54,167 bases of DNA from Bacillota bacterium (GTDB lineage Bacteria; Bacillota; Sulfobacillia; Sulfobacillales; Sulfobacillaceae). The stretch covers positions 1 to 54,167 of the forward strand of contig JAKBWA010000061.1 of NCBI GenBank assembly GCA_021841025.1. The letters run 5' to 3'. Under the pieces are notes generated by a model. It saw only the letters and a program-made list of their open reading frames with translations, made no database searches and was not told the origin of the DNA. Numbering within the stretch: the stretch's first letter is position 1; every line of letters begins with the position of its first letter. The position numbers were made by a program, and so were the translations under genes. Positions 9,065 to 14,812 of the stretch are shown one piece after another.

Positions 9065-9784
9065 TCAATACCTTAAGTTCACCCCCCCGTCCACTCTTAA
9101 CGTGTGAGCAGTAATGTAAGAGGACTTTTCGTTGTCCAAGAGGAAGTCGATTGCCGGAGCAATCTCTTGCGCTCGGCCCAAGCGCCCTAAAGTGATGTGC
9201 CGCTGCAACTCCTGTTCTCCCCGGGAGTCCCTGACACCCATGCCATCCGCTAGGGCCCCCACCATCACCGTATTCACACGCACCTGGTCTTTTCCCCATT
9301 CTGCTGCCAAATGCCTCATCAGTCCTTCCAAACCTGCTTTCGATGCGCCATACACGGCTGCAGGTCCCATAGCACTGGCCATAATGGCGTCAATACTGGA
9401 GACGAAGACAATGCTGGACGGAGCCAGAAGCCTAGGCTTAACGATCTTGACCAACTCAAATGCCGACCGGAGGTTCACATTCATCATTTGTTCCCACTCC
9501 GAGGAGGTCGAATTGATTACCATGTCGCTATAAACCACGCCCGCCAAATGCACAACACCCGTAATCTGTCGAATCTGGAGTTTGTCCAGTTCACTTAGCA
9601 CTTGCTCAGCCATACGCAAGGGTTCTCTCAAGTCCGCCTGGATCCATTCCACCGGGCCCTTGACATTGACGGCAGAGTGTCGAATTCCTATGATATGCCA
9701 TGATGGATGAATCAGATCGACCAAAGCTTGGCCTATCGCTCCGCTAAGGCCTGTCGCCAATAGAACACGCGAACGATCACTCAC
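9065..9784 (-). CDS. SDR-family oxidoreductase
   Basis: A 239-residue short-chain dehydrogenase/reductase with a Rossmann fold. The nucleotide motif TGLSGAIG lies near residues 12-19, HLAGV replaces the usual NNAG, and the catalytic set reads VFVSSIDA (Ser) and YGASKAG (Tyr-x3-Lys). The C-terminal end ITAHTLRVDGG is classic for SDRs. The absence of an Asp after beta-2 (GIRHS) hints at NADP(H), which is weak evidence. The start is GTG with GGAGG about 8 bases upstream. The substrate cannot be told. It is transcribed with, and just upstream of, the ClC gene and divergent from the DUF255 gene. Confidence 0.85.
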   Translation of the reverse strand: MSDRSRVLLATGLSGAIGQALVDLIHPSWHIIGIRHSAVNVKGPVEWIQADLREPLRMAEQVLSELDKLQIRQITGVVHLAGVVYSDMVINSTSSEWEQMMNVNLRSAFELVKIVKPRLLAPSSIVFVSSIDAIMASAMGPAAVYGASKAGLEGLMRHLAAEWGKDQVRVNTVMVGALADGMGVRDSRGEQELQRHITLGRLGRAQEIAPAIDFLLDNEKSSYITAHTLRVDGGVNLRY

Positions 9785-9876
9785 AACGTCTTCCTCCTCA
9801 GCATATTCTCGCCAATCCCGGGCAAAGATTGGTATGATAACCAGTGTGTTGTTGATATCGAGAAAGGATGAATATC

Positions 9877-11682
9877 ATGGCAGAACCTACTTTCCGTTTT
9901 AGTCCGCGCCCAAATCGGGCCCAGGAAATCCATTGGCACGAATGGACGCCCCAAACATTTCAAAAAGCCAAGGACGAAGACAAGCCAGTACTCTTGTCCA
10001 TCTCGGCAGTTTGGTGTCATTGGTGCCATGTTATGGATGAAACGACTTATTCCGATCCCCAAATCATTTCCCGCATTAATTCCGATTTTATTCCCGTTCG
10101 CATCGACAATGATCAAAGACCCGATGTAAATCAACGCTACAACATGGGTGGATGGCCTACCACGGCATTTTTAACTCCGGCGGGCGAAATTATCACCGGC
10201 GGCACATATATTGCCCCTGAGCAAATGACCCCTCTACTCGACCAGGTTCTGGATTATTGGCGCGAACATAAAACTGAAATGGGGGACACCCTCAATCCTC
10301 CTGAATCTCCAAAGATTAATTCCGGTCTTGACAGACCCTCGCCCGAGTCGGTCACCAAAATCATGGAAGCCATACGGGACCAATTTGATCGAGCTTACGG
10401 AGGGCTCGGCGTAGCCCCCAAATTCCCCCAGCCCGAAGTCTGGGACTTATGTCTAATCTATTTTACCACAAGTGCCGACGGATGGGCGGCAGGAATGGCG
10501 GCACGCACACTGGACGCCATGGCCGGTTCGAACCTATTTGATGGCATTGACGGAGGCTTTTTCCGCTATTCGACTACGAGAGAATGGACCGTTCCTCACT
10601 TTGAAAAGGTGTTGGACGACAATGCACAACTTGTCAAACTGTATCTTCATGCCTATCAGGTGCTGGGGGACGAGACTTATCGTCAAATAGCCGATGCCGT
10701 ATTAACCTGGGCTAATAAAAATCTATTGAATCTTAATGGTCTGTGGGGGGGATCACAAGACGCCGACGAGGAATATTACGGATTATCTCAAGAAGACCGC
10801 GAAAAAAGGGAAGCGCCATTCGTGGATCCCATCATATACACCCACGCCAATGCCGAAATGATTTCGGCACATCTGTTGGCCGCCTCTCTGATCAATCCCG
10901 CGGGTTATTCCCCCATTGCCCTCACCGCTTTAGAGGCGATATGGGACCGGATGTGGGATGAGGACGCCGGGTTATTCCACTACGACGACGAGGGTGAACA
11001 AGGAGTCCCAGGACAGCTCATTGACGTCTGTCACCTCACCAATACGCTGATTGACGGGTATGAATTCACCGGCGACCCCTTATACCTGGAACGCTCACAA
11101 ACCCTTATCAGTTATGCCGATCAGGTATTAAAAGCAGACAACGGTGCCTTTTATGACCACCCTGAAACCCCGCAAGCCCCCGGCCGTCTCAAACACCGAC
11201 AGCAACCCCTTAATGAGAACGCTCTCATGGCCCGGGCCTTTCTCAGGCTGGGCGCAATTCTTGACGACGATTCTTGGAACCTTCGTGCTCAGAAACTCGT
11301 GGGTCAGTTTTCCCCTATGGCTGAAGAGCAAGGGGTGTTTGGGGCTTTGTGGGCCCAAATCGCAGACCGTGTGGAGGCACCTCTTTTGACCACCACTGTC
11401 GTTCAGTCGCAGCATCGTCCAGGCAGCCAATTGCGCCAGGCTATTTATGGCCTTTTTGACCGCAACCGAATCGTGCGTACGTGGCCCGTTGGCAGTCCCG
11501 AGTTTTCTCAGAGCGGATATCCGGAAATCCCCGTTCCGGCCCTATATATCTGCCAAGGGCAAACCTGTTCGGCCCCCGTTACCGACCCCGAGGGAATTCT
11601 GCCCGCTCTGCAACAGCTGCAGCAACAAAGTGCGACGGAATTGACCAGTCCTTCTGATCCGGACGGAGCGTCCCCGTCTTAA
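9877..11682 (+). CDS. DUF255 thioredoxin-fold / spermatogenesis-associated 20-like protein
   Basis: A 601-residue cytoplasmic protein of the YyaL/SPATA20 family (PF03190). The N-terminal thioredoxin fold carries WCHWCHVM (46-53), a CxxC-type site with histidines, then RIDNDQRPDVN and the cis-Pro region GGWPTTAFLTPAG. The rest is an alpha/alpha-toroid glycan-enzyme-like domain with GGFFRYSTTREWTVPHFEK and DNAQLVKLYL. Family members are typically somewhat longer (about 600-700 residues) and their reaction is not firmly known. The frame opens at ATG 9868, but AGAAAGG (9861-9867) abuts that codon and is well spaced from ATG 9877. A strong terminator follows at 11727-11762. Confidence 0.88.
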   Translation: MAEPTFRFSPRPNRAQEIHWHEWTPQTFQKAKDEDKPVLLSISAVWCHWCHVMDETTYSDPQIISRINSDFIPVRIDNDQRPDVNQRYNMGGWPTTAFLTPAGEIITGGTYIAPEQMTPLLDQVLDYWREHKTEMGDTLNPPESPKINSGLDRPSPESVTKIMEAIRDQFDRAYGGLGVAPKFPQPEVWDLCLIYFTTSADGWAAGMAARTLDAMAGSNLFDGIDGGFFRYSTTREWTVPHFEKVLDDNAQLVKLYLHAYQVLGDETYRQIADAVLTWANKNLLNLNGLWGGSQDADEEYYGLSQEDREKREAPFVDPIIYTHANAEMISAHLLAASLINPAGYSPIALTALEAIWDRMWDEDAGLFHYDDEGEQGVPGQLIDVCHLTNTLIDGYEFTGDPLYLERSQTLISYADQVLKADNGAFYDHPETPQAPGRLKHRQQPLNENALMARAFLRLGAILDDDSWNLRAQKLVGQFSPMAEEQGVFGALWAQIADRVEAPLLTTTVVQSQHRPGSQLRQAIYGLFDRNRIVRTWPVGSPEFSQSGYPEIPVPALYICQGQTCSAPVTDPEGILPALQQLQQQSATELTSPSDPDGASPS

Positions 11683-11726
11683 AGAGGACAGAATCTCAAT
11701 TGTCCCCTTTTGTGCCCCCATAAAGA

Positions 11727-11764
11727 AAAGGCACCGTCGAAAAGATTACTGGCGGTGCCTTTCT
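11727..11764 (+). terminator. Intrinsic terminator after the DUF255 gene
   Basis: AAAGGCACCG (11727-11736) pairs perfectly with CGGTGCCTTT (11753-11762); the loop is 16 bases. The TTT ending and preceding A-run make it usable in both directions. It insulates the following Pho-box promoter region. Confidence 0.85.
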
Positions 11765-11797
11765 ATGTTCTATGCGTTATGGCTAGGCTACACCTTC

Positions 11798-11870
11798 TTA
11801 ATCTTTTCATAACAAAACATTAACGTCTCGTTAATCTGATCTTTACCGCCTCTTAAAACCCATCTGTCAC
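11798..11870 (+). promoter_or_regulatory. Array of phased Pho-box elements (PhoP/PhoB operator)
   Basis: Hexamers resembling TTAACA recur at exact 11-base steps: TTAATC 11798, ATAACA 11809, TTAACG 11820, TTAATC 11831, TTTACC 11842, TTAAAA 11853 and CTGTCA 11864. Established knowledge: PhoP of Bacillus binds TT(A/T/C)ACA-type repeats about 11 bases apart, and E. coli Pho boxes begin CTGTCAT. Here they stand directly before a phosphate-type MFS gene. A TAAGAT at 11879-11884 could be the -10 box. The regulator itself is not in the window. Confidence 0.7.
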
Positions 11871-11910
11871 AATAGCTCTTAAGATCAACAATCCACACAG
11901 GAGGATGAGT

Positions 11911-13302
11911 ATGGACACCGATAAATCCGGCCTAATCGATACACTTAATGAGGCACCTTTAAGTCTCTTTCACTTTCGGGCTGTTGTCACCGCAGGAATG
12001 GGCTTCTTTACGGATGCTTACGATCTTTTTATCATTGGTGCCGCCTTGGTGCTGATCAAAGCCCAATTTGGTCCCAGTAAGGAAATGCTCGGCTTACTCG
12101 GATCCACGGCCTTGATTGCCGCGTTTGTTGGAGCTTTTGTGTTTGGCCGTTTGGCGGATACGCTGGGACGAAAAAAGATTTATGGACTGGAAGCAGCCAT
12201 AATGGGTGTGGGAGCATTAGCCTCGGCATTCTCTCCCAATATGATATGGCTTGTGGTATTCCGCTTCATCATGGGCTTAGGCATCGGCGGTGACTATCCT
12301 GTCAGTGCAGTGATTATGAGTGAATATGCCAACAAGAAGGATCGAGGCAAGCTGGTAGGATTGGTGTTTTCGATGCAGGCTTTGGGTTTGGTGGCAGGCC
12401 CTATTGTTGCCCTTACGCTCTTGGCTTCAGGTATTCCTCACAACATTGCGTGGCGGCTTATGCTGGGGCTAGGTGCTATTCCTGCTTTGGCTGTCGTGCT
12501 CCTTCGGCGCCGCATGCCAGAATCTCCGCGCTACACAGCATTGGTACGCGGTAACGCTCTTGAAGCCCACGACAACCTATCCCGTTTTAGCGGATCCCGA
12601 GTCGGTCTGACGGCCCAAGATCAACAGGTTAAGCGACTAGGATTCTTGGAATTCATCACCAACCGCAAGTACCTGTTGACCTTAATCGGTACCGCTGGCA
12701 CCTGGTTCGTCTTTGACTATGCTTATTACGGCAATTCCATTTCTATGCCTTTAGTCTTAAAGGCAGTGGCTCCTCATGCGTCCGACATCACCAGCATGGC
12801 TTGGTCTCTGATCGTTTTTGTCGTGGCGGCTGTTCCCGGATACTTTTTGGCCGTCAGCAAAATGGATAAAATCGGACACAAGAAATTGCAATTAATTGGA
12901 TTTCTGTTTATGGGTTTGGCCTTCGGAGCTATTGGGCTGATTCCTCACCTTACTCACCTGGTTATCCCGTTCTTACTAGTATTCGGAGCCAGTTACTTCT
13001 TCGCCGAATTCGGGCCAAACACCACCACCTTTGTGCTATCATCGGAACTCTACCCTGTGAGCATGAGAACGACAGGACACGGAATATCAGCAGGCATTGC
13101 CAAGTTCGGAGCATTTCTCGGGGTGTTTGTATTCCCCACATTGACAGCCGCGTTTGGACTCAAAGGAACTTTGTTAATCACTTTCGTCTTTTCCGTAGCC
13201 GGATTCCTTTTGACACTGCTTTTGCCGGAACCCAAAGGACGCAGTTTGGAATCCATTTCGGACGACACTATTCCTTTCACATCACGGGCTGTGAATTCTT
13301 AA
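11911..13302 (+). CDS. MFS transporter, phosphate:H+ symporter type
   Basis: A 463-residue twelve-helix major facilitator. It carries the loop 2-3 motif GRLADTLGRKKIYG and the PHS (Pho84/Pht1-like) signatures GMGFFTDAYDLF in helix 1 and GLGIGGDYPVSAVIMSEYANKKDRG in helix 4, and ends helix 6 with PESPRY. These suggest inorganic phosphate import driven by protons, rather than sugar or aromatic acid transport; the Pho-box array just upstream supports this independently. GGAGG (11900-11904) touches the first ATG at 11905 and is 6 bases before ATG 11911, which I choose. It is monocistronic and ends at a strong terminator. Confidence 0.88.
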   Translation: MDTDKSGLIDTLNEAPLSLFHFRAVVTAGMGFFTDAYDLFIIGAALVLIKAQFGPSKEMLGLLGSTALIAAFVGAFVFGRLADTLGRKKIYGLEAAIMGVGALASAFSPNMIWLVVFRFIMGLGIGGDYPVSAVIMSEYANKKDRGKLVGLVFSMQALGLVAGPIVALTLLASGIPHNIAWRLMLGLGAIPALAVVLLRRRMPESPRYTALVRGNALEAHDNLSRFSGSRVGLTAQDQQVKRLGFLEFITNRKYLLTLIGTAGTWFVFDYAYYGNSISMPLVLKAVAPHASDITSMAWSLIVFVVAAVPGYFLAVSKMDKIGHKKLQLIGFLFMGLAFGAIGLIPHLTHLVIPFLLVFGASYFFAEFGPNTTTFVLSSELYPVSMRTTGHGISAGIAKFGAFLGVFVFPTLTAAFGLKGTLLITFVFSVAGFLLTLLLPEPKGRSLESISDDTIPFTSRAVNS

Positions 13303-13339
13303 CCCTCTTGAGAATCCAAATGGCCCCTCGTGAAATACC

Positions 13340-13379
13340 GCAGCGAAAGAGCCTCTTGTGCTTTCGCTGCTTCTTTTTT
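13340..13379 (+). terminator. Intrinsic terminator after the MFS gene
   Basis: A perfect 10-bp stem GCAGCGAAAG (13340-13349) / CTTTCGCTGC (13361-13370) with an 11-base loop is followed by TTCTTTTTT. Confidence 0.92.
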
Positions 13380-14812
13380 ATTTCGTCCCATAAGACCTAC
13401 TGGATAATCCCCCGCTTAAAAATGCTACGACAAGAAATCGAGAAATGGGCCTAATCACCATGTTTCCCGATTTTTTTGCGCCCCGGTCCCACAGGGAATA
13501 TCACTCAAAATCCCTGACTAGGGCAGAAAAGAATAAGCGAAGCTCTCAATCTCAAGCACCACTGACCAAAAACTTCCCCTTCGAGAGCTAATCTTTACTC
13601 ATAATTTTTCGTGCAGCTTCCGAGCCACTGCCGCTTTGCTCCAGGTGAGGGCCCGATGTTTGGACGTCTGAGCCAAGGCGTAAATGGCCTTTGCGCTGTG
13701 CTTTGGGCTCACTATGGGACCTGGTGAGGACACCAAGGAGATTCGCATGGTCGTCGTTCGAACTATTCGGCCATGCCATGGTATCCGTGATGGAAATGGT
13801 CGGCATGGCCACGGGATTACCGCTAGCCATTGACGGACGAGGAAATTCCCCCGTCCCGCTCTTGATGCCGGTGTCATAGACGGTAATGGTCATATCTCTG
13901 GTTGTTGCAGAATGCGGTTGACTTAACCGACTCTACAGCCAAACCGGTTAGTGTAAACTTCGGCGTCTTCGCATACGCTGGAGCTGTCGCAAGCAGACTG
14001 ACGGACAGCGCCGCCCCCGATCGCCAGCCTGCTGAGGTCTCCGCATCCAGCTTCTGGTAGACTTTGCGCACTTCTGGCGGACGCGAATTTCCACCGATTT
14101 GAGAGTGAGAGTGCATCCTGCAGCACCGCGCTTGGACAATCGCACTCGATGATCAGCTTCAATTGAGCATTTTGGACTGGGTAGTGGTTGACAGGGATCA
14201 AATTCCACCTTCCTTCAGGACTGCCACATAGCCCGGGGCCGGTATTTATCCTCAAAATAAAACTGTTGATGACTTCCATGACATCTTTGCAACAGAGGCT
14301 GCCGGAACAAAAAACATTTTCCATGAAACTCTTTGTTCGTATGAAAATCAACGAATTACAGAGTGCTCCATTTCGTTCAAAGATGCGGGTAATAAATGGC
14401 CTTGAGAGGCCAGATGGAATCGAAGGAGGGCAGCGGATCCCTAAGTGATGCTAAAAACCAGCAAAGCATCGGGATCCGCGGAAGTGGCTATGCCGGAGCC
14501 AGCCTGTGGTGGCGCAAGACAGGAGCGCCGCAATAGAAAATACCTAAGGGATTTACGCTATGAATTCACCATGAACATCTCTATGAGTTTTTTCTCTGTA
14601 TGGAACAAAATTTTAGAATAACAGCATGATAACAAGATTTTTCCCGCTCCTAACGGATGGGAATGACGTCAGTCAAGGAGAATTTCCGTCATAATGTGAT
14701 TTCTCATTAAGATGTCACACTTCGCGACCGCAATCTATCCTACTCGTATCCTTTTACCATTCGCCAGCGAAAACATCGTTGTTTCTGGGGAAGATCGCTT
14801 CCCCCTTGTCTG
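13380..14812. other. 1.4-kb stretch without an intact gene, probably decayed
   Basis: No reading frame here has both convincing composition and a good ribosome site. On the minus strand between about 14351 and 13588 three overlapping frames (14351-13923, 14116-13874, 13893-13588) each carry protein-like patches, including a signal-peptide-like run SVSLLATAPAYAKTPKF near 14000, as though one gene had been broken by frameshifts. I recognise no family. From 14480 to 14812 the DNA is richer in A+T and shows no coding pattern. A strong inverted repeat sits at 14433-14479. Confidence 0.4.
14433..14479. repeat. Two-part inverted repeat, strong hairpin
   Basis: GCGGATCCC (14433-14441) pairs with GGGATCCGC (14471-14479), and inside it GATGCT (14447-14452) pairs with AGCATC (14465-14470); only a five-base bulge interrupts the 15-bp stem. 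There is no T-run. It could be an element end, a stable RNA hairpin or a remnant of a mobile element. Confidence 0.6.

Follow-up and report, generated by a model that had tools for sequence, protein, structure and literature searches.

A conserved array of six PHO-box-type half-sites precedes a predicted phosphate:H+ symporter gene in a member of the Sulfobacillaceae

At PhoB promoters, boxes can stand in for the -35 element, and the consensus of Bacillus PhoP is of the TTAACA type. PHO boxes consist of 11-nt direct-repeat units that are bound head-to-tail by an OmpR-family regulator, with a core of CTGTCAT in Escherichia coli and GTTCACC in Streptomyces (PMC4415409). Streptomyces coelicolor has four such units in glpQ1 and five in glpQ2 (PMC7866108). 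Clear members of the Pho regulon without conserved boxes exist, and RegX3 is counted among the phosphate two-component systems (PMC4415409). For Sulfobacillus, a phoB-phoR-pstSCAB-phoU cluster has been described as a putative Pho regulon (PMC6803676). Among phosphate:H+ symporters (PHS), the pocket of PiPT is formed by Y150, F174, Q177, W320, D324, Y328, N431, and K459, and its proton residues are D45, D48, E108, R139, and D149 (PMC6761603). PHO boxes, PHS symporters, the Sulfobacillus pho cluster, and Pho84-like proteins in acidophiles (PMC5328820) are thus already known.

The window analyzed here is a 54,167-nucleotide stretch of DNA that constitutes contig C61 of a 3.39-Mb genome in 118 contigs, assigned to the Sulfobacillaceae. 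The features discussed below are as follows.

11727..11762, no strand assigned: GC-rich inverted repeat, AAAGGCACCG (11727-11736) and CGGTGCCTTT (11753-11762), read from the sequence.
11798..11858, + strand: array of six PHO-box half-sites, one every 11 bp, starting at 11798, 11809, 11820, 11831, 11842, and 11853 (sequence, matrix score, and shuffles; kept in relatives).
11868..11873, + strand: -10-like element CACAAT, nine bases past the sixth box and overlapping a seventh hexamer, CTGTCA.
11899..11904, + strand: ribosome-binding site AGGAGG, read from the sequence.
11911..13302, + strand: MFS phosphate:H+ symporter-like gene (profile, PDB-sequence, and residue comparison).

A preliminary description of this locus had reported seven Pho-box hexamers in 11-base phase and had proposed a matrix scan. 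The hexamers TTAATC, ATAACA, TTAACG, TTAATC, TTTACC, TTAAAA, and CTGTCA begin at 11798, 11809, 11820, 11831, 11842, 11853, and 11864, so the positions and the phase are exact, as are the direct repeats in 11-bp phase that characterize a PHO-box operator; it is the count that changes, to six. The half-site matrix (TTAAYA type) was built manually with the finding already in view, rather than trained on footprints; by this matrix, boxes 1 to 6 score 6.4, 5.3, 6.6, 6.4, 5.0, and 5.0 (a range of 5.0 to 6.6), and CTGTCA scores -1.1. The seven-box reading was dropped on that score and because relatives keep the -10 part of the seventh unit. We propose the six half-sites at 11798..11858 as the predicted landing site for three tandem PhoP dimers.

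The six-box run is the top 11-bp array of the whole 54-kb window on either strand (score, 34.6). When periods of 6 to 21 were compared within 11701-11905, the four-box score was 24.6 at period 11, and the runner-up, period 13, reached 14.7. Dinucleotide shuffles of 11765-11905, with all periods from 8 to 14 permitted, matched the six-box score in 0 of 3,000 cases and the four-box score in 1 of 3,000.

The seventh hexamer is the upstream portion of a unit whose conserved portion is the -10-like element. CTGTCA is conserved in close relatives and is replaced elsewhere by TCGGCA, TTGCGA, or CAAAGA while the -10 part persists, with counterparts such as CACAATA, GACAATG, CATAATC, and CACACTG. CACAAT sits 37 bases 5' of ATG 11911, which is likelier to be the start codon than ATG 11905 of the open reading frame list because the latter directly abuts AGGAGG. 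A sigma-70 scan of 11600-13500 returned two sites, both within the gene and no more than expected by chance; this outcome fits a promoter without a -35 element but proves nothing. The GC content of the upstream region is 46%, versus a window mean of about 50%. The inverted repeat at 11727-11762, between the upstream gene and the promoter, is a possible terminator of the upstream gene; its loop is 16 bases, and the terminator scan, which allowed loops of up to 8, listed a different candidate at 11686-11705, but its yield of 3 sites is near the chance level (shuffle mean, 2.4).

The hexamers are conserved in relatives, a point on which the preliminary description had let its proposal depend. We fetched 79 relatives, 78 of which had usable upstream sequence (L055, with almost none, was omitted); the unit-by-unit reading left out L005 and L008 and took L002 and L003 as L120 and L121. 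Among periods of 7 to 16, period 11 was the best fit in 68 of the 78 upstream regions, compared with 149 of 1,620 control windows from the same loci, and the best four-box score averaged 11.5 for period 11 and -1.1 to 0.3 for the other periods. Four-box scores of at least 14 occurred in 25 of 78 relatives versus 5 of 2,502 control windows away from the gene start, a cleaner background than an earlier one (61 of 1,819 windows) that includes the upstream regions themselves. The remaining 53 relatives scored below 14, and 10 of the 78 had another best period; relatives such as L034, L068, L082, L083, and L098 had no array upstream. Many of the relatives share ancestry, and these counts are accordingly not independent events. 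The upstream regions scoring at least 14 stem from Sulfobacillus, Alicyclobacillus, and MAGs labelled Actinomycetes, Bacteroidetes, and Dormiibacterota, and high scorers include four regions of 64 to 70% GC (L051, L041, L043, and L044). The array is present in the 91 to 92% identical orthologs (L154 to L156), and many relatives at a greater distance also have it, though its sequence varies; many actinobacterial loci have TTCACC as the unit.

Within the same family, 30 of 34 genomes contained a match to the transporter at an E value of up to 1e-100, for a total of 65 matches. We examined 64 upstream regions, belonging to 63 of these matches (the partial G012:C27 and G031:C56 were omitted) and to the genome's own 38% identical paralog on C29; they include the window's own region and several identical or near-identical ones. 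Period 11 was best in 54 of the 64, and 49, representing 44 distinct arrays, had a four-box score of at least 14. Fifteen regions scored below 14, and 10 had another best period (L172, L176, L187 to L191, L208, L213, and L214). Two same-genus genomes offer a side observation: the transporters at L171 and L172 are both 69% identical to that of the window, and their arrays score 30.3, the highest among the family regions, and 2.3, respectively, a difference that may reflect loss of the array or replacement of the promoter.

Pooling 140 upstream regions, collapsing identical arrays, and skipping L023 and L024 yielded 60 distinct arrays with scores of at least 14. Measured from the start of the fourth box, the motif [TC]ANNNT was found at +15 in 25 arrays, at +37 in 15, and at +26 in 8; 39 of the 60 have it at +15 and/or +37, and one has both. 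Counted with a tolerance of one weak unit, the boxes 5' of the -10-like unit number four in 25 arrays, six in 18, five in 6, and seven in 4, with 7 arrays having another number or none. The arrays are therefore mostly even-numbered, with four or six boxes, and end at a fixed distance from the -10 element.

The gene behind the array encodes a transporter whose best family model is TIGR00887 (phosphate:H+ symporter) at 324 bits, the next family, aromatic acid/H+ symporter, reaching 175. The curated equivalog cutoff of TIGR00887 is 610 bits, so we call the transporter PHS-like rather than an equivalog and read its substrate from the pocket residues. In the PDB, the sequences that match it best are 9kmq (inorganic phosphate transporter 1-11) and 7sp5, a protein entered as "Phosphate transporter", which we take to be the fungal PiPT because its residues fit the PiPT numbering at an offset of two. 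The phosphate-type MFS assignment of the preliminary description thus agrees with both comparisons, and the transporter scores best to a phosphate family. In a sequence comparison that rests on this offset numbering, the window's protein keeps 13 of 13 PiPT pocket and proton residues. Across 80 proteins, made up of the window's own and those of 79 relatives, 12 of the 13 never vary; the exception is the position of E108, a proposed proton residue, which is E in 60 of 80 and V or L in 20. For 11 of the 13 residues we also compared proteins of the same genome: two array-bearing paralogs (49% and 38% identical) keep 11 and 10 of the 11, versus 1 to 4 in five other MFS proteins. R139 is also retained by most other MFS proteins and is therefore little informative. 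No PiT homolog was found in this genome. We predict that the transporter is a proton-driven phosphate importer.

A genome-wide search with a four-box pattern, allowing up to 3 mismatches, gave 14 matches versus 7 for a reversed control pattern; the matches merged into seven places, namely, the window promoter, C92, C29, C52, C1, C35, and C75. The array at C92:94302 precedes the 49% identical PHS-like paralog and that at C29:19286 the 38% identical one. Two of the six nonseed places thus fall within 300 bp upstream of both paralogs on the right strand, for which a simple binomial gives a chance of about 1e-7. Three PHS-like genes therefore stand behind arrays, which would be an operator common to phosphate-related genes of the genome. 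A more degenerate search, for three boxes plus a -10 element, did not discriminate (174 matches, as against 113 with the pattern reversed), and none of the counts draws on it.

Two of the other places deserve separate description. C52 (L118) carries divergent PHO-type arrays, at 9541-9594 (- strand) and 9819-9872 (+ strand); downstream of both, a -10-like hexamer (AATAAT and TACACT) lies in the phase expected. The first precedes a VIT1-family, iron transporter-like gene, for which a link to phosphate would be unusual. The weaker array at 9819, which is outside the 14 matches, faces a UgpC-like ABC operon, whose ATPase matches UgpC best at 396 bits (cutoff, 432) and whose binding protein reaches 48 bits to UgpB (cutoff, 411). 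On C1, a four-box array (L119, G000:C1:7018-7056, - strand) lies upstream of a small gene with no -10 element at the expected phase; this array, C1:7056, may be a chance occurrence.

The genome also has a plausible source of the regulator. The preliminary description had made its proposal conditional on a PhoP regulon in the genome, and PhoP-, PhoR-, PstSCAB-, and PhoU-like genes do occur together on C19 (L117), where an OmpR-type regulator lies beside a PhoR-like kinase and pst-phoU genes. The regulator scores 270 bits to YycF (cutoff, 340) and 250 to PhoB TIGR02154 (cutoff, 296), below both, and its best-matching solved sequence in the PDB is RegX3. The kinase scores 387 bits to PnpS (cutoff, 400) and 330 to PhoR (cutoff, 334), again below both. 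PstB, at 361 bits, and both repeats of PhoU are above their cutoffs; the PstS-like protein is short, at 74 to 75 bits (cutoff, 207), and the cluster also includes two permeases. An ortholog of the regulator was found in 32 of 34 family genomes (E value of up to 1e-85), and phoP, phoR, pstSCAB, and phoU adjoin in the same order in all 11 genomes inspected (L117 and L245 to L254).

No array precedes the pst or phoPR operon, the classic target of PHO boxes. In scans that could miss weaker sites, none of 30 genomes (30 of the 32 regulator matches, one with 97 and one with 1,080 bases of upstream sequence; best score, 9.1) had a four-box array in the 1.5 kb before phoP, and the 11 pst clusters, over 11 to 12 kb, gave few array matches, which lay inside phoP, pstS, or phoU without a -10 element; two-box sites scoring 12 and accompanied by a -10 element were not found there. 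Given that box-less members of the Pho regulon exist, the absence of boxes at phoPR-pst does not exclude regulation.

We postulate that the region upstream of the transporter gene is a phosphate-starvation promoter at which phosphorylated PhoP, as three tandem dimers, would replace the -35 element and activate a proton-driven phosphate importer; we put the probability of this reading at about 0.87. At low phosphate, PhoR would phosphorylate PhoP, which would bind the 11-bp repeats head-to-tail as three dimers. The promoter-proximal box would take the place of the -35 element, with PhoP contacting RNA polymerase, and the resulting transcription would yield a transporter that couples phosphate uptake to proton influx, driven by the large inward gradient of protons in an acidophile. 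Phosphate-starvation control of a proton-driven phosphate importer was also the interpretation of the preliminary description, and it is supported by the conserved array, the Pho cluster, and the phosphate-type transporter, from which we infer the regulation itself.

Other readings of the locus differ in what they keep of this one. The array might be read by another OmpR-family regulator that uses 11-bp direct repeats, WalR/YycF- or MtrA-like, instead of the PhoP-like protein of the pst cluster. Sites of the WalR type are indeed 11-bp repeats, the genome encodes nine OmpR-type DNA-binding domains, and even for the C19 regulator the YycF model gives a slightly higher score (270) than the PhoB model (250), neither reaching its cutoff; however, such arrays precede three genes for phosphate-type transporters, the C19 kinase is best matched by PnpS and PhoR, and the regulator-kinase pair accompanies pst-phoU in 11 of 11 clusters, which leaves this reading very unlikely. 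If PhoP is the regulator, the transporter might still mainly carry metal-phosphate complexes or another anion, with the promoter serving metal tolerance. Pho84-like proteins of acidophiles have been discussed as metal-phosphate transporters (PMC5328820), and the second-best family model here is an aromatic acid/H+ symporter. We consider such a role unlikely, as all 80 proteins agree at 12 of the 13 phosphate-pocket and proton positions and control of the PHO type indicates import under scarcity.

To the idea that the 11-bp periodicity is mere chance in an AT-rich promoter we give almost no credence. The upstream region is AT-richer than its surroundings (46% GC versus about 50%), and degenerate patterns do yield many control matches (174 versus 113); yet 0 of 3,000 shuffles reached the six-box score, period 11 is best in 68 of 78 relatives, and high-scoring regions exist at 64 to 70% GC. 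The conservation of the array refutes a chance periodicity.

Control by PhoP may extend to a wider arrangement, which we advance tentatively, at slightly less than even odds: an inverted Pho regulon in this acidophile family. The array-less pst operon with its own phoP-phoR would act as a standing sensor and baseline importer, and import induced by starvation would fall to several MFS symporters of the Pht1/Pho84 type. Most of these genes have four or six boxes upstream, which would accommodate two or three PhoP dimers and might make the response a graded one. The pairing of array and importer, kept in many relatives, suggests that a Pht1/Pho84-type importer, and not the usual bacterial one, is induced at phosphate shortage. 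It would tie a textbook-type bacterial regulator to a family of importers described chiefly in fungi and plants. The hosts inhabit strong proton gradients, where a proton symporter would cost little to operate. Should the pst operon truly lie outside the inducible set, this would be a natural division of labor, with one transporter for phosphate sensing and different ones for inducible import. The mostly even-numbered arrays and the fixed-phase -10 element also provide a simple, testable rule of dimer-by-dimer activation by PhoP.

Among described systems, one of the closest is the Sulfobacillus Pho cluster, whose genes recur on C19 in the same order; the available part of that account mentions no PHO boxes or MFS phosphate genes as belonging to it (PMC6803676). 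Among the matches listed in a search of the open-access literature, which covered titles and the beginnings of abstracts, nothing evidently concerned a PHO-box-controlled bacterial Pho84-type gene. Nor did any of those matches evidently cover PHO arrays upstream of PHS-type importers in bacteria, the predominance of even box numbers in them, or the lack of such arrays at the pst operon. With the boxes of PhoB in E. coli and of PhoP in Bacillus and Streptomyces, the window's array has in common 11-nt direct repeats, several per operator; it differs from the E. coli and Streptomyces boxes in having six well-matched units with a TTAAY core, placed before an MFS gene. The TTCACC unit of the actinobacterial relatives resembles the Streptomyces core GTTCACC (PMC4415409). 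Compared with the PHS family (Pho84, PHT1, and PiPT), the window's protein is bacterial, has 463 to 465 amino acids, and scores 324 bits against a cutoff of 610, but it shares with that family the best model, the best PDB sequences, and the residues of the phosphate pocket and proton path.
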